DNA from: a virus | Virus record (IMG/VR): IMGVR_UViG_3300020442_000006 | Coordinates: 1-64,000 of that record | Reading direction: 5' to 3' (one strand) | Length of the DNA stretch: 64,000 nucleotides | Shown here: positions 12,666-50,726 of the stretch, piece by piece | Layout: each line of letters begins with the position of its first letter | Position numbering within the stretch: the stretch's first letter is position 1 | The notes under the pieces: generated by a model | Told to the model about the DNA's origin: nothing | The model's input: only the letters and a program-made list of their open reading frames with translations | Databases searched by the model: none | Translations under genes and position numbers: made by a program

Positions 12666-12673
12666 TATTTATA
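12666..12673 (-). promoter_or_regulatory. T4-type late promoter, perfect TATAAATA
   Basis: A perfect TATAAATA on the minus strand, 50 bp upstream of the 1967-aa fibre gene and directly after the intrinsic terminator of the preceding operon. The terminator-then-promoter arrangement marks a transcription-unit boundary. Confidence 0.8.
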
Positions 12674-12676
12674 CGC

Positions 12677-12701: not shown

Positions 12702-12706
12702 AGGGT

Positions 12707-20356: not shown

Positions 20357-20360
20357 TGTT

Positions 20361-21896: not shown

Positions 21897-21918
21897 TGGA
21901 CAGTTTCTACCTTCTCTT

Positions 21919-21926
21919 TATTTATG
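21919..21926 (-). promoter_or_regulatory. T4-type late promoter, CATAAATA
   Basis: CATAAATA on the minus strand, 22 bp upstream of the gp8 start, in the 36-bp gap after the 624-aa gene. It fits the NATAAATA late consensus and the usual spacing. Confidence 0.65.
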
Positions 21927-21932
21927 AGGGTT

Positions 21933-25512: not shown

Positions 25513-25520
25513 TATTTATG
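25513..25520 (-). promoter_or_regulatory. T4-type late promoter, CATAAATA
   Basis: CATAAATA on the minus strand, 24 bp upstream of the 558-aa gp10-like gene, overlapping the stop codon of the 578-aa gene. Same octamer and spacing as the site before gp8. Confidence 0.65.
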
Positions 25521-27452: not shown

Positions 27453-30400
27453 TTAGTTGTCATCAAAGATCTGGTCGGGACTGAAGTTGTCCAAGGTAGT
27501 TGATCCAATGTTGATAGTGAGAACTGCGGAGTTAGAAAGTGTTGGGGTTGCACCTGCTGCGGTGAGACCACATCTGAATTCGTCACCTCCATCTGCCTGT
27601 GTGGTAACAGGAGTTGTGTATGAAGGAGATGTAGCACCGTTAATGTTGTTCCAATCACTCTCACCGTAGTTCTTCTTCTGCCACTGATAAGCGATTGTGC
27701 CGCCTACAGGGACTGTAGAAGCGATGACTGTGAAGGATGCCACTTGACCTTGGTTAACAGTTGTGTTAACTGGTTGTGACTCGATAACGATTGCCTGTTC
27801 ACCCTGTGCCTGAGATTCACCTGGGGGAACGTAGTTAGGATCATAGATGTCGATACCACCGTTGACTCCAACACCTGAAGGTGCGAAGAAGTTATCAGGA
27901 ACGGTAGTGTTCACATTGATTTTTGGTTGTACATAACCTTGACCTGCGTTCTTCACGTCAATGCGTGCGAGACCAACAAGTGCCTTGATGCGTGCACCAA
28001 AACCAGAGGATGAAATCACATCCACGTTAGGACGTGAATCGTAACCATCACCAGAGTTTGTAAGGATTGCTTCAGTAACACGACCCTTCTCGATTGTTGC
28101 AAGAGCAGAACCGTTACGTCCCTTAACAGCACCTGAGTATTCGAATGTGATAAGTGAGTTAGAAGATTCAATCAGAGCAACCTCTCTACTCTCATCCTCA
28201 CCTTCGATCTGCAGAATGTCACCTGCCTCAACAGGAGGAACGACAGTTGCAGCGATAACGTCAACGTCAGAACCGATGTAGGAGAAGGCAACGAAGGTTG
28301 AACCTGCACGAGGAACTTCAGAGAAGATGATTCTAGAACCAACGATCTCGAAACCAATTCCAGGTTCCTGAATAACACCGTTCAACTGACAGATGATGTT
28401 GTTTTCAGGGAGGATAGTGTTGGACTGTACACCGTCAGTCAGTGTAAGTGAGTAGAACACACCACCAAGTTTCAAGTTGAAGGAGTTCCTCAAGGAGTCG
28501 AAGTCGAATGAGATGTCATCCAACTGTCTCAACTTACCAACGTACACACCGTGGAATGTAGATCCAACAGCAGGTGCCTCAGTGAACTGGATATTGTCGG
28601 AGAACGCTGTGTAAGCGTTGTTACCACCAGGAGGTTGGAGAATACCATTCACGAAGATCATCATATGACCTGCAGGATCTGGGAAGTATGCAGTACCGTT
28701 TCCAGTGGTCAACTTGAAGTTCTGCTGAACACCGTCAAATCCTCTGAAGAATCTCTTCACACGCCCGCGTAGAGTCTTAGCAACTGAACACGCTGCTCTG
28801 AATCCAAAGTCACCAACAATCTGAGCATTCTTAACGAATGTTCCAGAAGTATCACCAAGGTGAATGATCAAGCGAAGACCGATTTGTTGGATCTTCTCAA
28901 TCTTACCGTAGGCAGTTGTTGGAGTTTGTGTGACTAATGTAATACCAGATGTGTAAACGCTTGGGAAGTTAGATCCAGGTGGAATCTTAGCAAGTTGATA
29001 TGCTGAGTCATTTGCGATGACGCTAAGGTTATCACCAATGCTCACGAAACGACCAGTCTCATTTGCGAGGTAAATTTCGTTATTTTGAATGTCGTGTTCA
29101 GTAACAACGAAGGTATGACCAACAGACTGACCAGAGTTTTGGAGTTGTAGTACATCACCAACTTCGAATGTGTCAGTAACACCTGTATCAGTGATCAATC
29201 CTGCGTATGTAAACTTAGTAATCTCGGTAGAATGGATGTACTCACCGAATCCTGGGAGGACTGAGAATGATTCAACCTCGATAATTTGATCAGTAACAGA
29301 ACCGTAGATAACGTCATTAGGAGCAAATTCACCCTTAACAGTTTCAATGTCATAGGTAATTCTACCTGATTGGTTATCAACCAGAGCACCATCGTTGTTT
29401 CTAACGATAAGAGCGTTTGCTTTACCTGAATCTTCCTTAGAATAAAGGATGTCAGTAGCAATAAACTCACCTTGCTTGAAGTTGACAAGCAATCTGTCGT
29501 GCATTCCAGTGTTAACTGTAGCAGTTGCACCTGAAGTTACGCCCTCAATATTGTCAGTAGCAGCAAATGAACCACTGGTCATTTGTACTTTTATGTAAGT
29601 TGCGTTGTCGGTAGCGATAATCTTACCTGCATTACCTGTAGCACCAGTCTTAACGATGTCCTCACCGTTAGCAAATACTTCAGGAGCAGATGTAACTGTA
29701 ATTGGAAGATACTTAACTTTGTAGTTAACAGCAGCAAGGTTGTCCTGAACTCTGATAACTTCAGCGTATGCACCTGATGTTGTTCCGTAGAAGATGTCAG
29801 CAGGTTCAATACCACCAGATGTAGGTGTAGGAATAACACGATCACCGTAAGTGGTTGGAATCCTAGTGACACCAGTCTCTCTGGCGACAGAGAATGTGTG
29901 GATTTCACCTGGGAGACCTGGAGTTAGAGATGTAAGTTTGTGTCCATCAATGTATTCTGCCAAGTAGATGTGGGTTGAAGTAGTATCTGGGTGGATGTAG
30001 TATGACGCCCTGTCAAGTTCCACAATGTTTGTACCCAAGACAGTGTAATTAACTCGATCATATGCTTCAAATGGGTGATTTGGTTTATGGATAGAACCAT
30101 CAGAGTTCACATCAACACCAACGTCAATCGCTTGCTTAAGATATACAGTTGGCAACTTAGATTCTGCAAGAGCAGTGTAAACCAAATGCCACAACTGCTG
30201 AATCTTATGTACAGCGGTCATTGTTGGACGCATCTCTCTGTCCTTGTAGAGAGATTCAAAGTTATAAGTTCCTGGTTCAGGAGCAGTGCCAGAAAGGATA
30301 TGAGTGATCATATCTGTGGTTGCTTCTGCGTGGAAGATCAAGTAGGTTCTGAAGATGTTAGGGAATGCGACGAAATTACCCTCGGCATCAAACCAACTGT

Positions 30401-33400
30401 TGATTAACTGGACGGTCATAGCATTACCGTCAGTCAACATATCGTAAATGTATGCTTTTCTAATGGAATCACCGAATGACTGATCACCCGTGTATCCTGC
30501 ATACTGATTCATTGTCTTATAGTATGCCTCTCTATTAATATACTGATCATTGATGGCAATAAGACGTGTTGCTTGACGATACATCTCAGGAGCAGATCCC
30601 AGTGTATCCTCAAGAAGATCAAAGAGAACGTTAGCAGCAGATGTCACGTTATAGCAGACACCACCACCGAACAGTAGAGTGTTGTTCTGTACAGGTGTGT
30701 TTCTAGTAATACCTTGGTTAGTAAAGTAACTACCATTACCTGCAGCAGCATCTTTAACAACGCCGATAACAATATCAAAGAGAGAACTGATAGTTGAAGA
30801 TTCAACGTTACAAGCACCCTGACCTGCCTGATCATATGTGATAGTAAGATCACGAACAGCGGCACGCTCACCTGTCAGTGGCCATTCGCCTGGCAGCGTG
30901 CGGGCAATGCCATCTATGTAATTTTGTGGGTTACTTGTACCAGTGTTGAACAGATCTATAGTAATTCCCATCAATGTTGTGATAGCAGATGCCTGTGAAG
31001 CACATCTTGTTGCTCCACCACCACCTGTGATCCAACTAATTGAGTTAGTTGTAGAACTGACGAATGTGTGGTTATAGTTACCACCACCCTGTACAGCGTT
31101 AGATACAGCAGATACGAATGTATGAGGATACTGTTCGCTAGAAGGTGAAGGGTTAACATTAACCTTGATTCGACCATTCTTAAATCTGATTCCGTTTGCA
31201 ACTGCACTTGTAAATGTGTGAGTGTAGTTACCACCTGCAGAAATTGCATTGGTTGTAGCACTTACGAATGTGTGTGTAGTTGTGTTGGTTGAAGGAGTTC
31301 TACCAGAGGCAAGAACGTTGACTGTGACTGTAGTTGCAGTAGCAGCAGTAACTTCAAGAGGAACATCGTATGCTCTATCCTTCTTCCAAGTAACACCACT
31401 AGATGTTGCTGAAATGAAGTTGTGAGCAGTAACGTTAGTTGAAGGAATACCATCAGAAAGAAGAACCTGAACCTTAAAGGTATTGGCAGTTACGTTAGAG
31501 ATTTCCAACCAAGAGTTTGATGCAGGGTCACTGCTTCTTGGATATGTGTGATCTGACTGATAGTTATCCTCTGCACATCTAAAGGTTAGAGAGTTATCAG
31601 CAATCTTGATTTGATCACCATTAGAGAACCCGTGCTGAGGAATGGTCAGCGTCATAATACCAGTTGTGCCATTATATTCAGCACCTGTAACTGTATGAGT
31701 TGTAGTTGTAGTTCTAGGATATGAGTGGTTGGTTTGGTTATCGTCTTCCTCACAAGTAAAGGTTAGTGAGTTAGGTTGGATCTTAAGATGTGATCCAGTA
31801 ACAAGACCGTGACCTTGACCCAAAGTCAGAACCATATTTCCTGTAATAGGATTGTATGCAACGTTTGAAGGTGTGAAGTTGACTGTACCTGTAGTACCAA
31901 CGTTTACAGTGAATGTATTTGTAGTTACGTTACCAACAGGAAGATACTTGTTAGCAGCAGGGTCAGATACACGAGGATATGAATGAACAGTGTAGTTGTT
32001 GTCCATATCACAAGTGAAGTTCAGAGAATTGTTAACAATCTGAACGTTGTCCCCGTTAGAGAACCCGTGGTTAGGAACTGTAAGTGTAAGAACACCAGTT
32101 GAAGGAACGTATGCTGCACCAGTTGCAGTAAACTCAGAATCTCCAATCTCAAGAACAGTTAGAGATCTACCAGATGCATAGTCAGTGGAACGAGGATATG
32201 AGTGGTTTGTAGCATTACCATCCTTGGTGCAAGTAAATGTAATTGCATTATCAGGTAACTTGACGTGTCTACCAACATCCAAGGTGTTGGAACCGATGTC
32301 AAGGAACATATCACCAGTTGTTTCATTGTATATTGCATTAGTTACATCGTAGTTAACGTTAGTAGTTGTACCAACATTGACTGTAAATGTAGAAGATGTA
32401 GAACCTGTAACGGGGAGAAGAGCACCGTTTGAAGGATCAAGAGGTCTTGGATAAGTATGCTCTGTCTGATTACTGTCAAAGTCACAAGTAAACTTCAATC
32501 CATAAGTTGCAATTTGAACAGCATCACCTGTTACCAGACCGTGACCAGTCTTAGTCAAGGTCAAATCACCTGTTGCAGGATTGTAAGTTGCGTTTGTAGG
32601 AGTTAACTGACCAGTCTGTGAACTACTGGAGTCAATAGTAATACCAGTATCATACTGAGCATAACCTTCAGTGTAACCATTGACAGAAACCAACTGCTGT
32701 CTCATCACCTGAATGGCGATGTCACGTGCCTGTTCGAAGATGTACTTAACTTCAGTAGACTGTGAATTGATGTGCTGAATAGCGTTTGCATCAGTGATAT
32801 AGAATTCAGTTGCATACCAAACCTTGTTATTACCACCGTGCTTGAGGTTCCACGCCATTGCCTCAAGGATGTCAATAACATCATCGATACAAGACTGATA
32901 ACCATAACCACCAAATGTAAGGTTAGGATACTGAGCATATCCACGTCCTACAGCAGTAGAAGCGATGAATCTCAAATTATTGAGGATCTCGTTACCTGCA
33001 TCGTAGTCTTTATTAGTAGTAGCGTTATTATCATAATCACCACGTGGAACTCCACCACCAATGGCATTTCCACCTTGTCCACCGCCACCACCTGCAGTAT
33101 TATCTTCGAAGGGAGTAAACCCAAGTTTATTGCGGATCGCGAGAATTGACATATCTCTTGCCATCTTATAGGCATAGATTGTCTCTTGTGATTGACCAGT
33201 GACGTGCTTAAGACCCATATCTGTATTCAGATAGAGTGCAGCAGCATCATATACTTCGCTGTTAGAAGAGAATCTCAAGTCGTGAGCAACAGAGTTGATG
33301 AAATCAACGATGTCGTCTTCACAATGAACCTTACCACCAGGAACTCTGAAGTTGTAATGCTTGAATGCAGAGGTCTTAGTTACAATGTCAACTGCCTCAG

Positions 33401-36400
33401 CAGCAATGGTACGAGCATTTCTTTCAATAATATTGGCAGAGTCTAGTGCTCTGTGAGTACCTTGGAAGATCTTAGGATCAGGAGGATAGAATGTGCTCTC
33501 AGTAATAACACTGTCAGTCAGATCATAGTTAACAGCAGGATCATACTCTTTTCTGTATGCACTAAGGTCACTGTACTGAAGTTGATAGAAATCATCAACA
33601 GTATTAGGAGTTGTGCCTGCAATGTTAGCAATGTTCTCATTTCTACCAACCAAGAGGTTCTGAAGTGCTTTACTTGAAAGGAACTTAACGTGCTCAAGAG
33701 CATCCAGCATCGCCAGCAATTCATCTTCGATGTAGTTGATATTGCTTTGTGAATCAAGGTAAGAATCAATCATACCCTGAATATTTGAGTTACCACCAGT
33801 TAGAAGGTCTCCCGCAACAGCAGGAACGATGTGATCTCTAATATCTCTAACACACTTCGCTCTGCTAGGAATGTCGATCTTATCCTGTTGGATAAAGTTG
33901 ATCATAACATCCCATTCTGCCTCCATCATAGAGACTGCTTCATCAGCAATCACTGCACGGTTGAAGTAAAGAAGGTCAGCACCATCACGGAATCTGTGAC
34001 CAGTAGGTGCCATCACATCCAACATATCATCCACAAGATCCATAATAAATGTCTGGATCACTGTAGGTGCAGGAGTTGAGAAGTAATTAGGAATACGAAC
34101 ACGTTGTGTGTATTCTCCAGTCAAATCATCTTCATTCTTGGTAATAATGTCGATGCAAAGTTTGGCAACTTCACGCCAGGTATAGATTGACTGTAGAAGT
34201 TCACCATTAACGTGCTTCAGAGCACCTGATCCTTCCAAATATCCACGACCTGCAACAATAGTATTGAAGTTACCACCTAATTTAAGGTCATTAACGATTG
34301 CAGGAATGATGAATGAATGTGTGTCACGAATACACTTGTCAGTACCTTGAGTGGATGTTCCTGTATCACCTGGGATGAGGAATGCAGGATACTTCTCCTT
34401 CATACGACCAACTGCTTCTTCTGCAATCCAATAACGGTTCTTTTCAATAATATCAGCACAATCTCTGTAAATATCACGAGAAACATCAATTTCCTCAGTC
34501 ATAATCTCTTCACGCCAGAGTTCAACACCATCAGCGTTAGCAGAGGAGATGATAGTCTGTTGATATGTTGCGTAAACAGCAGCAAGTTCTACAGGGAAAG
34601 GTGCTTCGCCATTGAAACCGAATGACACGTCAAGTGCACGGAAATCATAAACGGTGGGGGGTATAAACCCACTAGAGTAGCTGGCGGTTCCTTTTCTAAC
34701 AATAAAGTTATCAATGTTACCTGTGAAAGTCTCACCGTTGTTCCAAGATGCACCAACAGCGATTGGTGAGTTACCATAATCAGAAGCGTCAGTATAATCA
34801 GACCCAACAGGTTGACCGTTGACAAACATCTTGGTAACGTTAGATGCTCTGGAAACAGCAATGTGATACCACTGATTTGCAGTAGGAATAGCACCTGCAG
34901 CAGTAATATGGTCAGTTGTAGCGATACCAAACTTCAGTGATGTACCTTGTAAGAATACTGAAGCAGCGTTACTACTGGATGCAGTTCTGAAATCAACAAG
35001 TCTCTGTGTTCCAGATACAGTTGTAGGATAGATCCACATCTCAACAGTGTAATCATTAACACCAAATGCAAATGCAGCATTGGAAGCGTGATTGATTCTG
35101 GAAGATGTACCACTGAATTCTAGTGATCCAGTACCAGTTCCAGGGTTCAATTTGTCAACAGTAACGTTGTTATAGGTGATTGTGGAGTTTGTGACGTACT
35201 CAGCGTCAGTAAATGAACCAGTAACACCCTTTGTATAGACCCACTTACTACCTGCATTGGTTCCAATGATCTCTGCAACAGCACCTGAAGACACACCTTT
35301 CAGTGTTTGACCGAAGTTGAAGAATCCACCAGATGATTTGTCCTTATAAGAATGCTTGATAGAACGAATTGTCTCACCCTCTTCGAAGGTGTACGCAGGT
35401 GCAATTCTAGGAACATTGCTAATAGACCACTGATAGGTAGTAGGATCGGCACCAGTAGGATCTTGTAAGGTATCAGTAATGATTCTGAAGAAGTTTGCAA
35501 CAGCAGATGTCTGAGCAACACAAGCATTTTCATTAGGAATAGTTGTTCTACCCTGTGAATAGTCTGCCTGAGGAGCAGTTTGAGTAACTGCTGCTTGGAA
35601 TGCTTCTCTAGTTCCTGGAGATGCAGTTGTACCAAGAGCATTGATGAGAATATCCATCAATGTTGTGATAGAAGCAGCAACTGCTTGACAAGTTGGACTT
35701 GCAGTGTCAGCAGTGATAGAAATAGTTACTTGGTTCCAATCGTGTGATCCTGCCTTGGTAACAGCAATATTTCTCATAATATCAAGAGACATTGCCTTTG
35801 CCTTAGTAAAGGAGTTGACAATAGTGTCTCTATCACCAGATGTCACACCATAGTGAAGAATTCTGTCTGTTGCTTCCCAGATGAAATCATTACCACCGTG
35901 GGCAACGTTATAAGCAAGTGCTTCAACAACATCTACGATGTCAGAGAGGCAATGCTCATCTCCACCAGATACGTTATATCCTGGGTTCTGGGTCTTAGCA
36001 TAGTGAAGTGACTCGTATGCAATAAACCATTTGTTAGCAAGCAACAAGGTTCTAGCATCACCGTGACTGTTACTTACAACCTCATATTCAGGAGTAATGG
36101 TAAGATCCTTCCACTGAGACAATGTTGTGAACTCTGTGGTGATATTAACCATATTAATGCACTTGTTAGCGAGATCTCTCGCTTGATTCATTGCATATAC
36201 AGTCTGAGGAACCTGTCCATTAACGTGATAGATGGTATTGTTCTGAACATAGAAGTTTGCAGCATCCCAGACTTCAGAGTTACCATCGTGCTCAAGTTGC
36301 CAAGCAATTAGATTGAGCATATCAACGATGTCGTCCTCACAATTAACTTTACCTGTAGGAACAGTAAAGGAGGGGTAGAAATCTAACATCTTACCCACCG

Positions 36401-39400: not shown

Positions 39401-42400
39401 ACGGAGTCGGTGAATCATCATCGGTAAATCCAGGTGTACCCTCTCTAATGATGTTAATGAATGGATATTCCAGTTTATACTGGTTATCTTTAGAGAATGA
39501 TAGGAAGTATCCAAGGTTAGATGAATCATCAAGGTCAAAGATATACTGATGTCCTCTAACAAATAGGAACTTAGGATGCTTAGCGTAGATATTAATGTTA
39601 GAAACAGAAGAACCTTGTCCAGAGAATGTAGGATCCTGAACAGCAGTGCTTCTTAATTTGTATGTGAAGTCTCTAGAAGTGAATACTTCTTGTACAAAGA
39701 ATGAACCATTATACTCATTAGTAGAGAATCTCTCAGTAAAGATGATGTCATTTGCTGAGAAGTTGTGTCTACTAGTAGCAGAGCAGTAAACAAGGTCAGT
39801 ATTTGTCAGTGCCTGTGAAGGAACAACGTCTTTGTTAAGTTTTGCTTGAAGATTGAACTGCTTAACACCAACAAGACCACCAAATGTTGCGATCTTACCA
39901 GTTGCATCAACATCAAATGTCAAGTTAACAGCGTCAGCATCAATAGTGTCACCTTTGATGAATGTTGAATCAGCATAGATCTGCTGAATTCTAATGGTGT
40001 AGTCGGAAGCATTGAAAGGTTTCCAAGATGCAAACTGTGCAAGAGTGCCAGATCCGTGTACACTATTCGCCAAATCTACTGAGAAGATACCTGCAACGCT
40101 TGTAAACGCCCAGTTGATGTTACCATCAGAAACAGTACCTGATGTATGTTCAGGAGCAAGAGGTCCTGCAGTTGCAGCAGTACCAGATGTATAGATCTTA
40201 CCATTACTATAGACAACATCACCAACAGCATAGTTCTGATTCTGCTGCCAAACAGGAACTGTAGTGTCAACGGTGAACTCTTTGTCCATCTCGTTAATAT
40301 CACCTGCAGTAGACTTCAGCAGTTTGCTTGTGTCAAAACTACCAATAATCTTACCAATCTTACAGGAATTGGTTCCAGATTCAACGACAGTACCATATGC
40401 AGATACAACATCGTTACCACCAATTACAGAATACTGTTGAAGAACAGATCCTTTAGTAAATGTGGCATTCTGGTTAAATGTAATAGTCTTTACAAGGTCA
40501 ATACTTGAGTATCTTGCATCTCTGATGTAGAACTTAGGAATAACCTTAGTAGTGAGGAGTAGTTTCTTACCACCTTGTGTAGGAATGGTTGCAGTTCTAC
40601 TTGCATATGCTTCATCAGTAGATGTAATAGTATAGACTCCAGGGATGTGAGTCGATATAACATCTGAGTAATCAAGAATCTGAATACCTGCAGGACCCAT
40701 TATCCAAGGGTTAACAGCAACTGACTGGGTATTAAACGTATAATTGCTTCCTGCGGCGACGTTTAGGGTATGTCCTGCCTCTACATCGTCTAGGGTGAAT
40801 GTACCAAGTTTTGTCTTATCTTTGTCAATCTTATAAATGAATGCCTTAGATACTGAGTTTGTACCAGTAATAAGACCTGCAGTGAATGCATCTGTGTACT
40901 TAGCAGAAGGTGTAAGAACAAAGTTGTCAATCCAACCGATCCAGTTGTTAGTAGAACTTGGAGTTGAGATAGGACCAAGTGTTGCCTGCATCAAGTTAAC
41001 ATCAACAGTAGAACTGTTAACTGAATGTGCCTCTACACCATTAACGTAGATACGATAGATGTAAGAACCAACACCAGGGCGTTCCTTAGAAATAGCAATG
41101 TGAACCCACGCCTCAGAGTTAAAGGCAGTCCAGAATGTTGTACCAGTAGAATATGAAACAGATCCATTCAAATCAAGGAATATCTTACCAAAATTGGGAC
41201 TGCTTGAAGTTCCATCAACACCAACCTTGACTTCCTGTGTCAACTGAGAGACAACACCGAAGAATTCTGGTTTAGATGCTTGTGCAGAATATTGAGTATT
41301 ACCAAGAGCAAACCAACCTTCCATTGTCCACTCAATACTAACATCAGTAGTTGTGCTGTACTGAAGGAGCATTGAGTTAGGAGCATCAAGTTTTACTGAA
41401 GATGCACCGTTATAGAACTTAGTATTATCGATAATAGCGTTACCTGAGGCAGCCCACTGCTTATTTGAACCAGTTCTTAGGATGTCATTATATGTTTCAT
41501 CAAACAGATTGTCTGCAGTGTTCCAGTTAAAGATAGCAAGTTGATCTGCCTCAACCTTGTTACCTGCAACAATAGTGTCACCAGAGTTATCGTTTGCAAC
41601 ACAAGTTGGATGGTAACCAATACCATTGGTCTCTGTTACCTCAGCAGCAGAAAGAACATTACCACTATTCCAAGAAATCTTGGCAGTAATTGATTGAACA
41701 GCGTTGAAATCTCTTTCTACAACAGCACTGATGTCGATATTACCAAATACGTCAAAGGAAACACCTGCATTCTTAATAGAGGTGTAAGTTCCAGTAGGAA
41801 CGTACATCTTAGCAAGAGATACTGCTGTATAGTCTTGGTTATCAAACTTAGCGTAGAGAACACCATAGTTCTTACCATTTGTGTCAATAGCAGTTGCAGT
41901 TACATAAACTGAACCATATTCATCAATAGTAAAGGTAGGATCAGCAAACTGGTAAGCACCAGACTCGATCTGCTTAGACCATTGAACCTCAATAGTAGCA
42001 GTATCGTAATATGTCTCACCAATAACAATGTTAGCATCACCTGCAGGGTCAGAGATACCACAGAAGAGGAATGTATCATCTGTTCTCCACTGAATCTGAT
42101 GAAGATGCTCACTGCCTGCAGCAGAAGCAATCTTACGCTTCTCCATCATAGATCCATCAAGATCAAGCAAACCAACCCACATATCGTCAGGTGCAGTAGA
42201 GTTGGAGTCTGTATAACCTGCAATCATTACTCGACCGTCTTGGTCAAGTCTGATGTCAGTAGCATAGTCTCTTCTAGTAGAACCAGAGATACCTGCAATA
42301 TCACGTTGCCACTGAATGATACCATCAGGGTTGTTAGCAATATCAAAACCAGACTGATACTTAGCAACAACGATGTCAGGGTTGTGAGTAAGGTTACCAA

Positions 42401-45400
42401 CGTTAGGAACAGTCTCACCAATCACATAGATGTTGTGAGGATTGCTGTTTTCAATATGAAGTGCCTTCCAAGATAGTGACTTATCAGCGTTTGAAGGAAC
42501 AGTAGGAATCAGAGTACGCTTCCAAAGCATTCTACCGTCACTGTTAAACTTAGCAAGAACACCTGCTGTATTACCATCTACAACCGTTGTTTGACCACAG
42601 ACATAGAAAGTACGATCATCAGCAACCTTAATATCATTAATCGTTACAGTAGAACCCGCTTCTGTTAGAAGTGAGAGGAAATAACTTGCTTTCTTAAATC
42701 TTTGAGGATGAGAAACACGAATTTGAGGTGGATTGTTCTCATCATATCCTGAACCAGAGTTGATAATATCAACAGTTCTTACAGCACCACCCTCATCTCT
42801 ATTGATATTAATGTTGAAGTCTTGTCCAGAGTTAGTAATAACCTCGTAACTAGGAGGAATATCTTCAGAATAACCAAGACCTTCCTGATCAATAGTAACT
42901 CTTTCTACACCAGAGATAACTTTTACCTTGAATGTCTTGTTAGTGTCATCAAGAATAGGTGTGCTAGTTACGATGATTTGATCATCTATACGCAATTCGT
43001 GCTCATTTGCAGTAGTGATACGACCATATGGAAGATCGTTCTGCATATATGAAGTATAACCTGCAATATCTAAACCTTTAACTGCTTCAACTTTTGCAGA
43101 GGCTCCGAAACCATCAGTTCCTTCGTTATCAAAGAACAGTTTGTCATTAACCTTGTAGGAGACACCTGGGTTCTCAACCACAAATCCATCAACTTTAGCG
43201 TCTTCAAACTTAGTCGTAGTCTCAATATCGATGTCAACAACTGATCTTGTAGAGACTTTAGGGTAGTAATCAAATAATTGTAGTACGGGTTCTTCAGTAA
43301 TCTGAATGGGAGTGGTTGATTCATCATTATTGATAAGACCATCTCTGTTAGTATCTTCGATTTCAAAGATAAGATCCTCACCAAGTTCAGTAACAAGAGT
43401 GTCAGTTGCTTGGTTAGGTGTACGATCAATATCAATATCCACATCCTCGTAAGGATCACGGAATCTAACCACGTTAGATGGGATATTTGTCTGTACAGCA
43501 TCCTGAGAGAAGTTCCATTCATCAGGTGAAGAGTACAGTTGAGGACCACAAATGTATGGGAATACAGGGTTACCTGCATCAGATGCATCGATTGATACAA
43601 AATATGCGTAAACACCTTCAGGGAATTCAGGAGTCTTACAGAAACGACCGTTATACTGGTCTAGATCACCCTCTTGGAACACATATTCAAAGTCATCAAT
43701 GAATGATCCTGCAATGTAATCAGTAAGAAGAGGACCATCTGCGCGAACAGGATTCAAGTTTGTCGCAGCATCATAGATGAGTGCGGGTTTAATTCTGTAG
43801 GATGAACGAATTCTTCTAATACCAGATGACTGGTCAGTGGCATCAATGTAACCGTAAGGTCCGTAGATAGGGTTACCATCGAATGCCCAACCCAAAATAG
43901 GAGAGTGTTGGTATCCAGTTGTAAGTTCTTGTAGTTGCTGAGTTGACTGATTCTTGAATACGTTGTCACCAAGAACGTATCTTAGTTGCTTAGGATCGGA
44001 AAGGTGTGCATATTCACCGCCATACTGTGTGTTATAACCTGCAAACACATAACCACGTGCTGTGTCAAAGTTCTGTCCTAGTTCATCTTGAAGGTTTCTA
44101 GTCCACTCAAACACAGTTGCAGTGAACTCTGCCATCTCACCAACCGCATCTAGACGGACAGTTGTATTACCAGTGGAGTAACCTACACCTCTGTTTACAA
44201 CAGTAACACCGATAACCTTACCTCTATCTTCACCAACAGCACCAATAGTTGCTCTTGCAATAGCACCATAACCGTCTCCATTGATCACAATCTCAGGAGC
44301 AGTTGTATATCCTCTACCTGCTGCAATGATAGCGATAGAAACGATTCTACCGTTAATAATAATAGGTTGAGCAACAGCACCCTCACCAGAGTTTAGTTTG
44401 ATGTCAGGAGATGATGTGTACGCTGCGCCTGTTTGGTCTACATTTACAGATTGGATAGGACCACGCACCTGTGCAGTAGCAAGACAACCATTGCCGCCTC
44501 CACCAGAGATAGAAACGTCAGGTTGTGATGTATATCCTTGACCTGGAGTTTCAACCAGAATCTTTGATACTACACCATTGGTAATAACAGCGGTAGCAGT
44601 AGCACCGAATCCGCCACCACCCACGATAGAAACAAGAGGACTAGAAGTGTAACCAGTACCCCCGTTAGAAACTTCGATTTCACTTAAAGCACCGTTAACA
44701 ACAACACTTGCCTTAGCACCAGATCCACCGCCACCATTGATCTCAATGATCGGAGGATTAGCAGCGTCATATCCTTGACCAGGGTTGTCAATAGTTATAC
44801 CAGTCAATCCACCAAACTTAATCTTAGTCTCAGACTTATAGGACCAAGTTGATACACCGTTAACCCAAGCACCGATAGGACCGAATGATGTATCTGTACG
44901 TCTAGAGATTGTATTGATAACTCTAGGGATACGGATCAACTTACGTTGGTTACCAGGAAGTAGCGCAGATCCTACAAAAGGACCAACTTGATAGTTAGGA
45001 ATACCAGAGGATGCAATGTATGCATACTGATCATTGAAGAATGTATTCTGTACGTTGGTAGTAAAGTCTCTGATAGCAACGCTGATACCCTCTTCTGGAG
45101 ACTTACCTTTGTTCAGGTCAACAGAAAGAAGGATGTTACCCTGTGGAGCATTAGGAGCAGGAGCAGGGATGTTATATTCAAACTGTGTATTATTGATACG
45201 TGATGTAACCAAGAAGGTTCCGTTGAACACAGTTGGGTTTGCACCGTAGATGGTAACAGTGTCACCAACCAACAGACCGTGGTTATTAGAGCAAGTAACA
45301 GTTGCAGTCTGGTTATTAAGACCACCAGGAACGATTTCGTTGATATTGATCAGTTTCTTAACGTTGTACAACCAAGAAGTGATTCTCTGGTCATTAGAAG

Positions 45401-48209
45401 TCGAACCAAGTGATGCAACGTTTAGTTTGTCACCAGGAAGATAGTATGAACCATTATCAGACAGAACTGTAGATTCTGCATCAGCAATACCAAGAACACG
45501 CAACTTACACTCGTTTTCAGTGCCACGGTTGACATAAACGAAGATGTCAGAGAAAACTGTAGTACCTGCATCCCAATCTTCAACTACACCGTTCTTAGAA
45601 CGAGTACATTCGATGAACTGGTTCAGTGTTTTCTCTTTGTACTGTACAACCTCAGCGTCATCAATACGGATAGTACCGTTTCTTTCTGGCCAACCAATCG
45701 TAGAGTCAACTGTAATAATTGATTCAGAGGTAGAAAGTTCCTCAACCAGTGTGGTTTTGTAGGGAATTGTGAACGCACCTTGCAGAGTTTCTTCTGAAAT
45801 TGCAAGTTCATACACAGTACCAACACCAGTGTTGATGGCAATAACGTTCTCAATCAGTGCAGATGCACCTCTTACGTTAGTGTCAACGTCATCAATATAC
45901 TGAATCAACTGTGAATCAAGTAGATTCTCTGGAGAACCCTCCAAAAGATCTGCTCTAAGAACCGTATCTACGTTCCAAGTTGCAGCAGAAGGTTTGATAA
46001 TCTCATCCTTAGGATAAGAAACATCAACATTTTCGGAGTAAAGGATCTTAAAGAGGTACTGTGTGGAGATCTTCGTACCTTTAGATGCGTAAAAATCCGA
46101 AATAGTTTTAATAATTTGCGGAGCGTTGACTCTGTTATAGTCGATTTCCGCATTAGGTAGATATTGATTTACGAATCTTCTGTATAATTCTTTGGCAAAA
46201 AGATTATCAAGATTGTGAATTGTTGCTCCTACAGCGTGAGAAGACTGTACCAGACTGGATTCTCCACTGTAAACTTGATGACCTTTCTGGTCGTATGATG
46301 TAACACCAGATACTCCGCGCTTTACACCAACAAATGCTGAAGGTTGATAGTTTTGTCCCGCACTGTGGATTGTGAAACCTGTAATTTCTCCAAAACCAAC
46401 GTCACAAGACGCTTCTGGAACAGGAGGAGCAGCAATGAACACTTTAGGAGGTTCTGTGTCTGAGTATCCAGTACCAAAACTAGTGATATTGATGTCAGTG
46501 ATTTCACCGTTAAAGATGGTAGCAACAGCAGTTGCACCAGTACCACCAATAGGAACACCGTTAGTATCCTTTCTATTATCAACGATATACACAGATGGAG
46601 CATCTGTATAACCCTTACCACCAGTTAGTAGTTCAATATTAGTAACTCTACCACCAGTACAAGATACATCAAGGATCTGAGCACCAACAGGATCAATAAT
46701 TCTTGCCCTGATGTTACCTTCATATCCCTGACCTGCTGATATGATGTCAATTCTTGATACTCTACCGTCATCATCAAGGATTGCTTGAGCAGTTGCATTG
46801 ATAGCATTATCCCCTGTAGGAGGATCCATATACACCAAAGGTGCAGTTGTATAACCAGAACCAGAAGCGGTTACTTCGATTGATCCGATGACGATTGATC
46901 CGTTTTCAACTGTAGGATCTGAGCAAGTAGCACCACCAGGATTAACAAACTTAATTGAAGGAATGCGGTCATATCCACTTCCTGAAGAAGTAACACGCAG
47001 TTCCGATACACCTTCGAGTTCATCTGAGACAATAGCAGTAATTTGTGCTCTGGTTCCCTCTTCATCAGCAGGAGCATCCACAACCACGATAGGTGGGTTG
47101 TCAGAAGAGTAACCTTGTCCAGGGAATAGAAGTTGAGTATTCTTGATACCGTTTACAAGTGCTTCCGCTGTAGCACCTGAACCAGTACCCTTATTTGACT
47201 GGATAGTGATTCTAGGAGCAAAACTTACTCTGTAACCAGAACCACCATTTCTAACAAGGATGTCGTTAACAGCACCGCCATCGATTTGAGATACTGCTGA
47301 AGCACCTGAACCAAATTCAGGAGCAATGAGTTCAACAGAACGTACATCTATTGTAGCATTTTGTGATACATCCTGCTTGAAGATGAGTTTATCTTCAAAA
47401 ACTGTAAAGTCCTCAAAAGGTCTCTTCTCAACTCTGTTAACAACAACGATTGATGAAACAGTAGAAAGAGGACTGTATGGTTGAGTATTGAGTTTCAGTG
47501 AAAACTCTTTAGCATCATTAGCAACTGTAATAGTGTCCAGAGAACGAACTGGAACGCTTGTGTAACCGATAAGGTAGCGAATGGTATTGATTGCACCTGT
47601 CAACGCCCCTGTAGTCGGTTCTGGAGGGTTTACAAAGCGAATACGGTCACCTTCAACGAAGTAGTCCCTATCAGGGAACATAAAATCGTTATTTACAATC
47701 ACCAAAAGGTGATTAGAAGACTGAGGTGAAACAGGTCTACCTAACAGTCTTAAATTAAATTCTGTCTTTGAACTATCAAACTGAGTGTTAATAGGTTCAA
47801 ATTCTTGTACTTTTCTATCAAATTCTTGCTTATTAACCCCTGGAGTGAAAACAATGTCAGGAGAATGTGTTACAGACTCGTAATATAGAACCTCATTATC
47901 AATTTTTAGCGTACCATCTTTCTCTAAGAAGTAATTTACATTCTCAGCAACGATTTTATTTTGCGTCGGATCAACCGCCTCCAACACAGCAGACTCTGAT
48001 GACAAGAAGTTAGGGTTAAATTCCCCTGACCCAATGTCAACATATGCTAGTATATTGTTCAGGATGTCGTATGGACGCCCCGATTTCTCTTGTGACTTAT
48101 AGTATTCTGTCAGCAAGTTGACGAACTGGTCGTTATCCTCCTTGATAAACGCAGGAATCTGACTGTTCAGTCTCTGAGAGACCTTAATTGCTGTGTTATG
48201 TGCAACCAT
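27453..48209 (-). CDS. Giant 6918-aa baseplate/tail protein, expanded gp7-like
   Basis: It occupies the T4 gp7 position (gp6 -> this -> gp8). Three segments look like conserved parts of T4 gp7 (1032 aa): IPAFIKEDNDQFVNLLTEYY (about 18-60), IIKTISDFYASKGTKIS...LFKILYSENV (about 695-725) and SYVIKSETPINQWRKPV...HPVGF (about 3485-3507). Between and after them sit inserted modules: GxGYxxxP beta repeats; a YHYH domain (about 43.5-44.0 kb); a propeller-like stretch (about 41.5-42.7 kb); two LamG-like domains (about 40.9-41.5 and 34.65-35.15 kb); six helical repeats; HSYPR and HTFVSA repeats; and a C-terminal Ig-like domain (about 27.5-27.8 kb). Inferred role: wedge core plus a very long adhesive structure. 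Confidence 0.85.
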   Translation of the reverse strand: MVAHNTAIKVSQRLNSQIPAFIKEDNDQFVNLLTEYYKSQEKSGRPYDILNNILAYVDIGSGEFNPNFLSSESAVLEAVDPTQNKIVAENVNYFLEKDGTLKIDNEVLYYESVTHSPDIVFTPGVNKQEFDRKVQEFEPINTQFDSSKTEFNLRLLGRPVSPQSSNHLLVIVNNDFMFPDRDYFVEGDRIRFVNPPEPTTGALTGAINTIRYLIGYTSVPVRSLDTITVANDAKEFSLKLNTQPYSPLSTVSSIVVVNRVEKRPFEDFTVFEDKLIFKQDVSQNATIDVRSVELIAPEFGSGASAVSQIDGGAVNDILVRNGGSGYRVSFAPRITIQSNKGTGSGATAEALVNGIKNTQLLFPGQGYSSDNPPIVVVDAPADEEGTRAQITAIVSDELEGVSELRVTSSGSGYDRIPSIKFVNPGGATCSDPTVENGSIVIGSIEVTASGSGYTTAPLVYMDPPTGDNAINATAQAILDDDGRVSRIDIISAGQGYEGNIRARIIDPVGAQILDVSCTGGRVTNIELLTGGKGYTDAPSVYIVDNRKDTNGVPIGGTGATAVATIFNGEITDINITSFGTGYSDTEPPKVFIAAPPVPEASCDVGFGEITGFTIHSAGQNYQPSAFVGVKRGVSGVTSYDQKGHQVYSGESSLVQSSHAVGATIHNLDNLFAKELYRRFVNQYLPNAEIDYNRVNAPQIIKTISDFYASKGTKISTQYLFKILYSENVDVSYPKDEIIKPSAATWNVDTVLRADLLEGSPENLLDSQLIQYIDDVDTNVRGASALIENVIAINTGVGTVYELAISEETLQGAFTIPYKTTLVEELSTSESIITVDSTIGWPERNGTIRIDDAEVVQYKEKTLNQFIECTRSKNGVVEDWDAGTTVFSDIFVYVNRGTENECKLRVLGIADAESTVLSDNGSYYLPGDKLNVASLGSTSNDQRITSWLYNVKKLININEIVPGGLNNQTATVTCSNNHGLLVGDTVTIYGANPTVFNGTFLVTSRINNTQFEYNIPAPAPNAPQGNILLSVDLNKGKSPEEGISVAIRDFTTNVQNTFFNDQYAYIASSGIPNYQVGPFVGSALLPGNQRKLIRIPRVINTISRRTDTSFGPIGAWVNGVSTWSYKSETKIKFGGLTGITIDNPGQGYDAANPPIIEINGGGGSGAKASVVVNGALSEIEVSNGGTGYTSSPLVSIVGGGGFGATATAVITNGVVSKILVETPGQGYTSQPDVSISGGGGNGCLATAQVRGPIQSVNVDQTGAAYTSSPDIKLNSGEGAVAQPIIINGRIVSIAIIAAGRGYTTAPEIVINGDGYGAIARATIGAVGEDRGKVIGVTVVNRGVGYSTGNTTVRLDAVGEMAEFTATVFEWTRNLQDELGQNFDTARGYVFAGYNTQYGGEYAHLSDPKQLRYVLGDNVFKNQSTQQLQELTTGYQHSPILGWAFDGNPIYGPYGYIDATDQSSGIRRIRSSYRIKPALIYDAATNLNPVRADGPLLTDYIAGSFIDDFEYVFQEGDLDQYNGRFCKTPEFPEGVYAYFVSIDASDAGNPVFPYICGPQLYSSPDEWNFSQDAVQTNIPSNVVRFRDPYEDVDIDIDRTPNQATDTLVTELGEDLIFEIEDTNRDGLINNDESTTPIQITEEPVLQLFDYYPKVSTRSVVDIDIETTTKFEDAKVDGFVVENPGVSYKVNDKLFFDNEGTDGFGASAKVEAVKGLDIAGYTSYMQNDLPYGRITTANEHELRIDDQIIVTSTPILDDTNKTFKVKVISGVERVTIDQEGLGYSEDIPPSYEVITNSGQDFNININRDEGGAVRTVDIINSGSGYDENNPPQIRVSHPQRFKKASYFLSLLTEAGSTVTINDIKVADDRTFYVCGQTTVVDGNTAGVLAKFNSDGRMLWKRTLIPTVPSNADKSLSWKALHIENSNPHNIYVIGETVPNVGNLTHNPDIVVAKYQSGFDIANNPDGIIQWQRDIAGISGSTRRDYATDIRLDQDGRVMIAGYTDSNSTAPDDMWVGLLDLDGSMMEKRKIASAAGSEHLHQIQWRTDDTFLFCGISDPAGDANIVIGETYYDTATIEVQWSKQIESGAYQFADPTFTIDEYGSVYVTATAIDTNGKNYGVLYAKFDNQDYTAVSLAKMYVPTGTYTSIKNAGVSFDVFGNIDISAVVERDFNAVQSITAKISWNSGNVLSAAEVTETNGIGYHPTCVANDNSGDTIVAGNKVEADQLAIFNWNTADNLFDETYNDILRTGSNKQWAASGNAIIDNTKFYNGASSVKLDAPNSMLLQYSTTTDVSIEWTMEGWFALGNTQYSAQASKPEFFGVVSQLTQEVKVGVDGTSSSPNFGKIFLDLNGSVSYSTGTTFWTAFNSEAWVHIAISKERPGVGSYIYRIYVNGVEAHSVNSSTVDVNLMQATLGPISTPSSTNNWIGWIDNFVLTPSAKYTDAFTAGLITGTNSVSKAFIYKIDKDKTKLGTFTLDDVEAGHTLNVAAGSNYTFNTQSVAVNPWIMGPAGIQILDYSDVISTHIPGVYTITSTDEAYASRTATIPTQGGKKLLLTTKVIPKFYIRDARYSSIDLVKTITFNQNATFTKGSVLQQYSVIGGNDVVSAYGTVVESGTNSCKIGKIIGSFDTSKLLKSTAGDINEMDKEFTVDTTVPVWQQNQNYAVGDVVYSNGKIYTSGTAATAGPLAPEHTSGTVSDGNINWAFTSVAGIFSVDLANSVHGSGTLAQFASWKPFNASDYTIRIQQIYADSTFIKGDTIDADAVNLTFDVDATGKIATFGGLVGVKQFNLQAKLNKDVVPSQALTNTDLVYCSATSRHNFSANDIIFTERFSTNEYNGSFFVQEVFTSRDFTYKLRSTAVQDPTFSGQGSSVSNINIYAKHPKFLFVRGHQYIFDLDDSSNLGYFLSFSKDNQYKLEYPFINIIREGTPGFTDDDSPTPLVKFIINDDVTNISYYFDPSRTTPDNSPVGEGSFIDVIQSPYQGTFTVNRVSNDGLEFDFPLLVEPEKSNAPVGNNEFGNPRSLYSTTSLKAIGPIATIKLVNPGGFYQKLPIVTDIASNREIEKVRILNGGTEYVNGVYYNVPIGGDGEGASCNITVTDDGDFEGVITDVVLTSAGKGYTTASIDVDAIPGILGPLLAGSGAQLDVVIPSEGSGASVFLQGKSIGRIKKLKNNEFGFGYSHDYTLRPEITFPVNLQLFNTAILSEIKITDPGSGYTSTPAVVIEGGGGSGANAEAVVKNNRLSEVIIKDPGAGYSSEPSVTLKSEFNYVVNIDLGYLQFNFPHGITTGAEIQLRAEDLGSTVGILPKPSSAGLVSLSSSQTYYAIAGEANGLESDQLRISLTKLDAESGSYITFLTQGEGRQILLTEVFGGQATAIVETSRFLEGELVYQGSSLELASATGYVSTNQGWQIGPRILKLENYKGVWTPGERVTGEVSRASGLIDNLSIARGTLNIDSLTNTPGQFIDDVGKPSEIVQKIQDSYFYQNFSYVIKSETPINQWRKPVLETNHPVGFNLFGELAITGGKDISGRKVVSDLIKEVNINAFTNINQITSFANAQPIYTQFNNTEVLFRQKRLTNSEEILTSIVKKIDNVSDDFDGVRTQFPLNVEGSSITATEDQMFVLLNGVAQSPGDSFSTSGPSIVFSEPPKAPSRIKFRNIDFTQLQITRLTFSVIGGIFPLTGNRVRGLVSEATAVVIDSGTDYIDVIDIEGTFQSGESVLSSATGFNSTLDTVNPVSSKTIFEQGERITNLDGKFAIIEENNLDDGTINTSLVVSRTSGTAKFETGEFEIKFNDVIYSARSKIAATVSAISPYQDEVSEQIIDTVDLSPSSSFFALVFQRVPSITYPNVILDDIGETVINPTELYDSESPNNQDFLDFESVRNQEIRYDGLVGTDFAPGTNIRLKKIYFGNSSIRTVPDTRANNAAEALVKNAKFIAEEAVGKMLDFYPSFTVPTGKVNCEDDIVDMLNLIAWQLEHDGNSEVWDAANFYVQNNTIYHVNGQVPQTVYAMNQARDLANKCINMVNITTEFTTLSQWKDLTITPEYEVVSNSHGDARTLLLANKWFIAYESLHYAKTQNPGYNVSGGDEHCLSDIVDVVEALAYNVAHGGNDFIWEATDRILHYGVTSGDRDTIVNSFTKAKAMSLDIMRNIAVTKAGSHDWNQVTISITADTASPTCQAVAASITTLMDILINALGTTASPGTREAFQAAVTQTAPQADYSQGRTTIPNENACVAQTSAVANFFRIITDTLQDPTGADPTTYQWSISNVPRIAPAYTFEEGETIRSIKHSYKDKSSGGFFNFGQTLKGVSSGAVAEIIGTNAGSKWVYTKGVTGSFTDAEYVTNSTITYNNVTVDKLNPGTGTGSLEFSGTSSRINHASNAAFAFGVNDYTVEMWIYPTTVSGTQRLVDFRTASSSNAASVFLQGTSLKFGIATTDHITAAGAIPTANQWYHIAVSRASNVTKMFVNGQPVGSDYTDASDYGNSPIAVGASWNNGETFTGNIDNFIVRKGTASYSSGFIPPTVYDFRALDVSFGFNGEAPFPVELAAVYATYQQTIISSANADGVELWREEIMTEEIDVSRDIYRDCADIIEKNRYWIAEEAVGRMKEKYPAFLIPGDTGTSTQGTDKCIRDTHSFIIPAIVNDLKLGGNFNTIVAGRGYLEGSGALKHVNGELLQSIYTWREVAKLCIDIITKNEDDLTGEYTQRVRIPNYFSTPAPTVIQTFIMDLVDDMLDVMAPTGHRFRDGADLLYFNRAVIADEAVSMMEAEWDVMINFIQQDKIDIPSRAKCVRDIRDHIVPAVAGDLLTGGNSNIQGMIDSYLDSQSNINYIEDELLAMLDALEHVKFLSSKALQNLLVGRNENIANIAGTTPNTVDDFYQLQYSDLSAYRKEYDPAVNYDLTDSVITESTFYPPDPKIFQGTHRALDSANIIERNARTIAAEAVDIVTKTSAFKHYNFRVPGGKVHCEDDIVDFINSVAHDLRFSSNSEVYDAAALYLNTDMGLKHVTGQSQETIYAYKMARDMSILAIRNKLGFTPFEDNTAGGGGGQGGNAIGGGVPRGDYDNNATTNKDYDAGNEILNNLRFIASTAVGRGYAQYPNLTFGGYGYQSCIDDVIDILEAMAWNLKHGGNNKVWYATEFYITDANAIQHINSQSTEVKYIFEQARDIAIQVMRQQLVSVNGYTEGYAQYDTGITIDSSSSQTGQLTPTNATYNPATGDLTLTKTGHGLVTGDAVQIATYGLKFTCDFDSNQTEHTYPRPLDPSNGALLPVTGSTSSTFTVNVGTTTNVNYDVTNAIYNETTGDMFLDIGSNTLDVGRHVKLPDNAITFTCTKDGNATNHSYPRSTDYASGRSLTVLEIGDSEFTATGAAYVPSTGVLTLTVPNHGFSNGDNVQIVNNSLNFTCDMDNNYTVHSYPRVSDPAANKYLPVGNVTTNTFTVNVGTTGTVNFTPSNVAYNPITGNMVLTLGQGHGLVTGSHLKIQPNSLTFTCEEDDNQTNHSYPRTTTTTHTVTGAEYNGTTGIMTLTIPQHGFSNGDQIKIADNSLTFRCAEDNYQSDHTYPRSSDPASNSWLEISNVTANTFKVQVLLSDGIPSTNVTAHNFISATSSGVTWKKDRAYDVPLEVTAATATTVTVNVLASGRTPSTNTTTHTFVSATTNAISAGGNYTHTFTSAVANGIRFKNGRIKVNVNPSPSSEQYPHTFVSAVSNAVQGGGNYNHTFVSSTTNSISWITGGGGATRCASQASAITTLMGITIDLFNTGTSNPQNYIDGIARTLPGEWPLTGERAAVRDLTITYDQAGQGACNVESSTISSLFDIVIGVVKDAAAGNGSYFTNQGITRNTPVQNNTLLFGGGVCYNVTSAANVLFDLLEDTLGSAPEMYRQATRLIAINDQYINREAYYKTMNQYAGYTGDQSFGDSIRKAYIYDMLTDGNAMTVQLINSWFDAEGNFVAFPNIFRTYLIFHAEATTDMITHILSGTAPEPGTYNFESLYKDREMRPTMTAVHKIQQLWHLVYTALAESKLPTVYLKQAIDVGVDVNSDGSIHKPNHPFEAYDRVNYTVLGTNIVELDRASYYIHPDTTSTHIYLAEYIDGHKLTSLTPGLPGEIHTFSVARETGVTRIPTTYGDRVIPTPTSGGIEPADIFYGTTSGAYAEVIRVQDNLAAVNYKVKYLPITVTSAPEVFANGEDIVKTGATGNAGKIIATDNATYIKVQMTSGSFAATDNIEGVTSGATATVNTGMHDRLLVNFKQGEFIATDILYSKEDSGKANALIVRNNDGALVDNQSGRITYDIETVKGEFAPNDVIYGSVTDQIIEVESFSVLPGFGEYIHSTEITKFTYAGLITDTGVTDTFEVGDVLQLQNSGQSVGHTFVVTEHDIQNNEIYLANETGRFVSIGDNLSVIANDSAYQLAKIPPGSNFPSVYTSGITLVTQTPTTAYGKIEKIQQIGLRLIIHLGDTSGTFVKNAQIVGDFGFRAACSVAKTLRGRVKRFFRGFDGVQQNFKLTTGNGTAYFPDPAGHMMIFVNGILQPPGGNNAYTAFSDNIQFTEAPAVGSTFHGVYVGKLRQLDDISFDFDSLRNSFNLKLGGVFYSLTLTDGVQSNTILPENNIICQLNGVIQEPGIGFEIVGSRIIFSEVPRAGSTFVAFSYIGSDVDVIAATVVPPVEAGDILQIEGEDESREVALIESSNSLITFEYSGAVKGRNGSALATIEKGRVTEAILTNSGDGYDSRPNVDVISSSGFGARIKALVGLARIDVKNAGQGYVQPKINVNTTVPDNFFAPSGVGVNGGIDIYDPNYVPPGESQAQGEQAIVIESQPVNTTVNQGQVASFTVIASTVPVGGTIAYQWQKKNYGESDWNNINGATSPSYTTPVTTQADGGDEFRCGLTAAGATPTLSNSAVLTINIGSTTLDNFSPDQIFDDN
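31500..32600 (-). repeat. HSYPR beta repeats inside the giant protein
   Basis: Five tandem protein-level repeats of roughly 65-75 residues with the pattern L-x-H-G-(L/F)-x-x-G-D-x-(V/I)-x-I ... L-x-F-x-C-x-x-D-x-N-x-x-x-H-(S/T)-Y-P-R, separated by NTFTVNVGTT-like strands. Immediately downstream (about 31.0-31.5 kb), five H-(T/N)-F-(V/I/T)-S-(A/S) units follow. Boundaries are approximate. Confidence 0.7.
32690..36450 (-). repeat. Six copies of a ~95-residue helical module inside the giant protein
   Basis: Each copy has (N/A)-(R/K)-x-x-I-A-x-E-(A/S)-(V/L) ... C-x-x-D-(I/T)-x-(D/H)-x-(I/V)-x-x-x-(A/V)-x-(D/N/Q)-(L/V) ... (G/S)-(G/S)-N then a helix ending in a basic stretch. They start near 36.44, 36.04, 34.45, 33.97, 33.43 and 32.99 kb. 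A LamG-like domain and linkers interrupt the array. This is protein-level repetition; boundaries are approximate. Confidence 0.72.
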
Positions 48210-50318: not shown

Positions 50319-50726
50319 TTACGCCTTCTCTAGGAGGAAGTCTACAGTGTAAACAAGTTGTTCACCGATGATTGTGTAATCAATCTCCACTGCTAGTTCG
50401 TTAGTGTCATCCACATTGCAACGAACATCATTAACTGTCACCCTAGGTTCTAGACGTTTCAGTGTATTCCTGATTTCGTCAGTCAAACCCTCAATCATAA
50501 AGACATCGAAGTTTTCAAATAACATCGATTTGACACGAGAACCTGTTTTTGGTTGAAATGGTCTTTCACCAAATTGTGTCAACAACAGGTTCTTCATTGC
50601 CTGCTTGATTGCGTTTTCGTTTTTTACAATAGAAAAATCTTCAGTATTAGGATTTGCTTTCATCCCAATACTGAAGTCTCTAAACTGCCTGCTTAGATTT
50701 TTCTCTGCTCTGAACCTGTACGCCAC
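50319..50726 (-). CDS. 25: Baseplate wedge protein gp25 (GTG start)
   Basis: A 135-aa protein (T4 gp25 is 132 aa) of the GPW/gp25 family: FRDFSIGMKANPNTEDFSIV, VKNENAIKQAMKNLLLTQFG, ERPFQPKTGS, then LFENFD. It anchors the wedge and sheath initiation. The only sensible start is GTG at 50726, because an in-frame TAA lies five codons upstream and the next ATG is at residue 22. The start is nested in a 47-aa ORF in another frame and has its own late promoter (50747-50754), with no strong Shine-Dalgarno. Confidence 0.93.
   Translation of the reverse strand: MAYRFRAEKNLSRQFRDFSIGMKANPNTEDFSIVKNENAIKQAMKNLLLTQFGERPFQPKTGSRVKSMLFENFDVFMIEGLTDEIRNTLKRLEPRVTVNDVRCNVDDTNELAVEIDYTIIGEQLVYTVDFLLEKA

Follow-up and report, generated by a model that had tools for sequence, protein, structure and literature searches.

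A giant gp7 ortholog from a T4-like marine cyanophage has a dispersed wedge core and phycobiliprotein-like modules

Introduction

The baseplate wedge initiator gp7 of phage T4 has a homolog in the PDB entries 9f4a and 9f4b. In contractile injection systems, gp7-like regions such as the gp7-like part of Alg12 have been described as hotspots for evolutionary re-engineering (PMC8894135). A giant gp7 in the gp7 slot is already known for marine cyanophages, both in databases and in a virion proteome (PMC9146016). The annotated orthologs have lengths of 6737 aa (S-WAM1), 6619 aa (S-SZBM1), 7312 aa (P-SSM4) and 8573 aa (P-RSM6), and several giant orthologs are labelled baseplate wedge initiator or gp7. 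The P-RSM6 ortholog (HQ634193, 103907-129628) sits in the gp7 slot and is annotated only as a hypothetical protein. For S-SZBM1, 71 peptides of the 724 kDa product were detected in virions (PMC9146016). Because of these annotated orthologs and virion peptides, the giant size of gp7 can be taken as real, expressed and already known. Neither the annotation of the giant orthologs nor the papers that we found mention a dispersed core or phycobiliprotein-like modules.

Cyanophages also carry genes for pigment attachment and synthesis. The role of phage cpeT was called unresolved and that of pcyA and pebS a mystery, because Prochlorococcus hosts have no intact phycobilisomes (PMC3037559), and for bilin reductases of phages it was described as unclear what they bring to infection of Prochlorococcus (PMC2984593). 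Here we analysed a stretch of 64,000 nucleotides (the window), positions 1 to 64,000 of the IMG/VR virus record IMGVR_UViG_3300020442_000006, which has 187,493 bases in total.

Results

The window contains an ATG-started ORF of 6918 aa with no internal stops (Table 1), adjoined on its upstream side by gp6 (48228-50315; phrog_219, E 5.6e-194) and then gp25 (50319-50726). The downstream wedge cluster is closed by gp8 (20361-21896; phrog_438, E 4.5e-214). The protein thus occupies the gp7 slot between gp6 and gp8 of the wedge operon, as the original prediction had proposed, and the wedge gene order is identical in S-WAM1, S-SZBM1 and P-SSM4. With residues 1-3000 as tblastn query, 478 phage records were matched, nearly all from Synechococcus or Prochlorococcus phages, and 281 of them covered at least 80% of the query. 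Further giant tail ORFs of 1967 aa (window 6712-12615) and 2403 aa (13145-20356) were found after gp8, the latter in the position of the "tail fiber connector" of S-WAM1. The protein encoded after gp7 (578 aa, window 25516-27252) ends in a weak Ig-like part and contains a YHYH domain. The giant gp7 has these two parts as well, although there the Ig-like end is a possible assignment, and exchange of these parts between the two neighbours is possible.

Three stretches of the protein had been proposed to resemble T4 gp7, and we found them at IPAFIKEDNDQ (residue 18, segment A), ISDFYASKGTKIS (around residue 703, segment B) and QWRKPV...HPVGF (residues 3496-3510, segment C). A single-sequence PDB search with residues 1-1200 gave gp7 only at E 0.42 (9f4a residues 733-761, at segment B), so profiles were needed. 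They were built from non-T4 sequences only and searched against a set in which five T4-type gp7s were mixed with decoys, both shuffled and unrelated. Each of the three profiles matched all five gp7s at the expected place, and the order of the segments was kept. The E-values over the five proteins ranged from 3.5e-9 to 5.3e-8 for segment B and from 4e-4 to 1.6e-3 for segment C (8e-4 for T4 itself), as compared to 6.7 and 3.3 for the best of the 210 shuffled control sequences. Segment A gave E 0.12-9.7 (0.36 for T4 residues 648-692) with a best shuffled control of 1.9, and is statistically weak alone, yet colinear in all five. The three likenesses therefore go beyond chance as judged by the 210 shuffled sequences. 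Segment A agrees with the Pfam family Gp7_helical, which covers T4 residues 643-689, and at segment B phrog_17744 and phrog_26741 are common to T4 gp7 and the window protein. Homology thus extends over the core formed by the helical segment, the DFY motif and the HPxGF motif, significantly for B and C.

Two compact gp7 proteins place the segments in a single context. In the gp7 of a Desulfovibrio phage (586 aa), A through C align as one block with T4 644-897 (E 1.3e-8), and that of Cr30 (767 aa) aligns with T4 644-821 (E 1.6e-5). Both align through the part of T4 gp7 equivalent to the domain V-like segment. No counterpart of T4 residues 1-640 was detected in the window protein, where T4 matches start at 644. 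The gp7s of Cr30 and the Desulfovibrio phage likewise start at the helical segment, so we take T4 1-640 as a feature of the T4 group and not as a requirement of the family. Judged by position and profiles together, the 6918-aa protein is the gp7 ortholog of a cyanophage that is marine and T4-like.

A separate gp7 gene elsewhere in the genome, which would have spoken against this assignment, was rejected: only a single B segment was found in the 187-kb record, and a 624-aa ORF in the window (21933-23807) tried as gp7 was matched by none of the segment profiles. The S-SZBM1 ortholog of this 624-aa ORF is annotated "baseplate wedge initiator", a label that looks wrong. When residues 1-850 were modelled alone with AF2, A and B had mostly pLDDT <50 and the model gave no PDB match to gp7.

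The distance from A to C is about 240 residues in T4 (648-889), within the roughly 250 that had been proposed, and 3,530 in the window protein, in line with the predicted dispersal over about 3500. Comparison of gp7 proteins of different size showed where the residues were gained. The start of A and the B motif are some 90 residues apart in the gp7s of T4, the Desulfovibrio phage and Cr30. This spacing widens to 191-202 residues in the compact cyanophage gp7s (S-CAM1, ACG-2014e, S-SSM7, S-SM2, ACG-2014f) and to about 700 in the clade of S-WAM1, P-SSM4 and the window phage, a value also seen at almost all of 80 IMG/VR loci. From B to C there are 130 residues in T4, about 155 in the Desulfovibrio phage, about 600 in Cr30, 1600-2300 in the compact cyanophages and about 2770 in the window protein. 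After C, around 90-125 residues follow in MA01 and S-CRM01 versus about 3400 in the window protein. The compact gp7s of 586-767 aa thereby reveal two insertion sites and a C-terminal extension. At the S-SSM7 locus (3562-22656) the label gp7 is given to two genes, each about 3000 aa long, with one ORF between them; segments A, B and C are in the first of the two only.

As the outgroups share the short A-B spacing, insertion is a simpler reading than loss, and to this extent the growth by insertion that had been predicted was borne out. About half of the growth, however, is due not to insertion but to a C-terminal extension that follows C. The lack of the first ~640 residues of T4 gp7 further indicates an ancestor that was smaller, not T4-sized. 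The conserved core (A, B with the domain V-like segment, and C) makes up about 300 residues, or 4-5% of the chain.

The domains that separate the segments were only partly as proposed. Beta (GxGY) repeats and the YHYH domain were found, and the LamG-like domain between B and C fell below the cut-off, with a strong LamG domain located after C. The propeller region gave only sub-threshold matches to DUF5122/delta-60.

Table 1. Location of the gp7 ortholog, its parts and the bilin-related genes. Positions are those of the window unless marked as positions of the whole record.
Feature	Position	Strand	Remarks
gp7 ortholog, 6918 aa, baseplate wedge protein	27453..48209	(-)	phrog_701 matches most of length; gp6 upstream, gp8 downstream
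Segment A, helical, residues 5-76	47982..48197	(-)	equivalent of T4 gp7 648-692
Insertion 1, residues 77-663, beta-rich, seven GxGY repeats	46221..47981	(-)	AF2 pLDDT ~88 over residues 71-640
Segment B, residues 664-746, DFYxxKGT...LFKILYxE	45972..46220	(-)	equivalent of T4 730-758, E 5.3e-8
Domain V-like segment, residues ~747-830, right after B	45720..45971	(-)	position read by eye from sequences
Insertion 2, residues ~831-3468	37806..45719	(-)	GxGY repeats, YHYH, sub-threshold propeller repeats, LamG-like, CBM_5_12-like stretch
YHYH domain, residues 1369-1542, between B and C	43584-44105	(-)	E 1.5e-30
LamG-like domain, residues ~2290-2440, between B and C	~40890-41342	(-)	E 2.5e-5, just below Pfam cut-off
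Segment C, residues 3469-3535, SYFYQNFSYVIKS...HPVGFNLFGE	37605..37805	(-)	equivalent of T4 864-889
M1 (NCEDD)	36114..36476	(-)	phycobiliprotein-like module
M2 (HCLSD)	35733..36107	(-)	phycobiliprotein-like module
LamG/concanavalin A-like domain, residues 4372-4502, after C	34704..35096	(-)	Pfam Laminin_G_3 E 7.8e-24
M3 (KCIRD)	34134..34478	(-)	phycobiliprotein-like module; PF00502 E 1.1e-6, 29.1 bits vs cut-off 22.2; AF2 + Foldseek
M4 (KCVRD)	33621..33992	(-)	phycobiliprotein-like module; AF2 + Foldseek
M5 (HCEDD)	33111..33452	(-)	phycobiliprotein-like module
M6 (SCIDD)	32658..33068	(-)	phycobiliprotein-like module
M7, degenerate, Cys absent at motif	30297..30584	(-)	E 2.0e-5
Two adjacent CpeT-family genes (144, 143 aa)	record 90543-91368	minus	beside gp5-like hub/lysozyme gene
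PcyA-type phycocyanobilin:ferredoxin oxidoreductase gene	record 166384-166956	minus	by sigma-70-like gene, near UvsW

Besides the second LamG domain, the C-terminal extension has six strong and one weak helical modules of about 120 aa (M1-M7), all in this one gene of the window phage; they were absent from the domains listed in the original prediction. A profile of 14 modules was compared with the PDB (177,635 sequences), and among the matches listed 60 out of 60 were phycobiliproteins. The top match was phycocyanin alpha (E 5.1e-5), with the CxRD motif of bilin attachment aligned. In a profile-profile comparison with cyanobacterial phycobiliproteins the modules scored 55.5 (E 2.5e-9), as compared to 13.8 for the reversed profile and 16.0 for T4 gp7; none of 40 column shuffles scored above 16.4 (E 0.046 or worse). 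Homology to PF00502 was thus found at the sequence level, with the match covering about 60 of 117 positions around the Cys motif. Equivalents of Cys84 with Asp87 are present. In 256 unique modules, the motif Cys occurs in 226/240 and the Asp in 235/244 non-gap rows, and among 26 representatives of <60% identity the Cys has the top information content of all module columns, with the Asp near the top.

The phycobiliprotein fold was obtained by prediction. M3-M4 were modelled with AF2 from phage-only rows and no templates (pLDDT 74.6, pTM 0.71), and in a Foldseek search against the PDB phycobiliproteins were 49 of the best 50 matches with a probability of 1.00 and a TM on target of 0.56-0.78, at modest E-values of 0.028 at best. 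The modules can therefore be regarded as related to phycobiliproteins in sequence and predicted fold.

With regard to distribution, tblastn with the modules gave 339-347 records, all from Synechococcus or Prochlorococcus phages except for one named only "Marine". The proteins with modules are labelled gp7, short tail fibre, tail protein or tail fibre-like, and a structural search of viral models with the module returned tail proteins of cyanophages along with proteins from uncultured phages. In bacterial and archaeal genomes, no close relative was found with the module query. In 146 cyanobacterial genomes nearly all matches of the module profile at E<=0.01 lay in open frames of 163-213 aa, which, judged by length, agrees with phycobiliprotein subunits.

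The genes of the window phage also include one for a PcyA-like bilin reductase (E 3.5e-38 against solved PcyA) and a pair of CpeT-family genes about 40 kb from gp7. A CpeT-family gene was present in 13/13 module-bearing versus 0/6 module-free cyanophage records (Fisher 3.7e-5, n=19; 12/13 and p 2.6e-4 by Pfam alone), in a small, non-random sample of related genomes, some chosen for their modules, and with no correction for phylogeny. Within a subset, cyanophages of one type with compact gp7, CpeT accompanied the modules in 5/5 versus 0/4 without them (p 0.008). In Syn1, S-RSM4, ACG-2014e and S-CAM1, a giant short tail fibre gene that carries modules is preceded on the same strand by cpeT, 365-1064 bp upstream. 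Some phages thus have the modules in gp7, whereas others have them in the short tail fibre next to cpeT. Presence of a ferredoxin-dependent bilin reductase (FDBR; PcyA/PebS) did not track the modules in the 19 records (p = 1), so only CpeT is linked with them. The CpeT of P-HM1 is said, from work of Gasper et al. in 2017, to bind phycoerythrobilin with no transfer to the host beta subunit. In Syn1 (NC_015288), cpeT is annotated at 19938-20477 (T4-LIKE GC 338), contrary to Table 3 of PMC3037559, where Syn1 is given as lacking cpeT.

Discussion

Our results are best explained by a gp7 ortholog with a small dispersed core, two insertions and a C-terminal extension that carries phycobiliprotein-related modules, a reading to which we give a probability of about 0.87. 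In such a protein, segments A, B and C of each copy would join gp6 and build wedges as in T4, the dispersed core folding back together with gp6 into the wedge core. The added chains would project outward from the baseplate as fibre-like domains of the tail surface, and these domains may have a surface or adhesive role. A core wedge protein of contractile tails can thus retain a core of about 300 residues while two fixed sites take up thousands more, and gp7 forms a clear size series from 586 to 8573 aa. The dispersal of the T4 core by insertion, the phycobiliprotein-like modules and their association with CpeT were not found in the open-access literature searched.

Capture of a light-harvesting domain from the host is the simplest explanation for the origin of the modules. 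Domains of this type are thereby placed in the virion tails of viruses that are abundant in the ocean. As a hypothesis, a CpeT-type lyase encoded by the phage would attach bilins to the cysteines of the modules. Captured host domains in cyano-myovirus tails would then be loaded with bilins derived from phage or host PcyA/PebS, the phage lyase would have its substrate in the phage rather than in the host antenna, and infectious virions would have chromophorylated tails. If true, this would explain why phages of Prochlorococcus, a host without phycobilisomes, keep such genes. We consider this proposal rather unlikely; a phage-encoded candidate acceptor nevertheless makes the puzzle of the phage pigment-attachment enzymes testable.

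For the present role of the modules we lean towards colourless structural spacers or protein-binding tail domains derived from phycobiliproteins, in which Cys and Asp are kept for folding and CpeT and PcyA act on host pigment. Tail domains work outside the cell, where light harvesting makes little sense. The Cys is missing from M7 and a minority of the other modules, Arg86 is replaced in many of them, and PcyA/PebS do not follow their distribution. Moreover, infection with S-PM2 is reported to raise host phycoerythrin, a finding cited by PMC2984593 and PMC10452541. Less easily accommodated are the conservation of Cys and Asp among representatives of <60% identity and the CpeT genes, which follow the modules in all 13 records and, in four genomes, share synteny with a tail fibre gene that bears modules.

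This last association could instead reflect common descent, with CpeT and modules kept in the same cyanophage lineages and functionally unrelated, an account that is possible, although we do not favour it. The relatedness and selection of the 19 genomes agree with it, and so does the cpeT pair of the window phage, since its location beside gp5, some 40 kb from gp7, may be ancestral. On the other hand, the association persists within the compact-gp7 subset, and the modules occupy gp7 in some phages and the short tail fibre adjacent to cpeT in others.

A convergent origin of the modules, as a helical bundle with a CxRD motif acquired by chance, would be compatible with the partial sequence match and with Foldseek E-values that are not small. 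It is improbable in view of the gap between the profile-profile E-value and those of the column shuffles, the single family among the PDB matches listed, the agreement of the predicted fold and the confinement of the modules, by sequence search, to phages of cyanobacteria. That the ORF is a fusion made in assembly or annotation, with a real gp7 of the first ~800 residues only, is hardly credible: S-SSM7 with its two genes labelled gp7 and one gene between them could be read that way, but orthologs of 6619-8573 aa are intact in independently sequenced isolates, peptides of the S-SZBM1 product occur in virions (PMC9146016), and with segment C starting at residue 3469 a short gp7 would miss part of the core.

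In comparison to known systems, the giant gp7 ortholog shares with T4 gp7 the gene order 25-6-7...8 and the segments A, B, V and C in identical order. It differs by having no counterpart of T4 1-640, two large internal insertions, a C-terminal extension of 3,400 aa and 6.7 times the length. Alg12 resembles it in the conserved gp6/gp7 core bundle, whereas the gp6- and gp7-like parts of Alg12 are fused and far smaller (PMC8894135). As compared to phycobiliproteins (phycocyanin, phycoerythrin; PF00502), the modules have equivalents of Cys84 and Asp87, the predicted fold and the spacing around the Cys motif in common; they differ in being arranged in tandem and embedded in a virion tail protein, and their alignment mainly covers the region around the bilin site. 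Also close are the giant orthologs among the cyanophage wedge initiator/phrog_701 proteins (S-WAM1, S-SZBM1, P-SSM4, P-RSM6), of which S-WAM1, S-SZBM1 and P-RSM6 show about 49% identity to the window protein over residues 1-3000, and which diverge from it in detail only.
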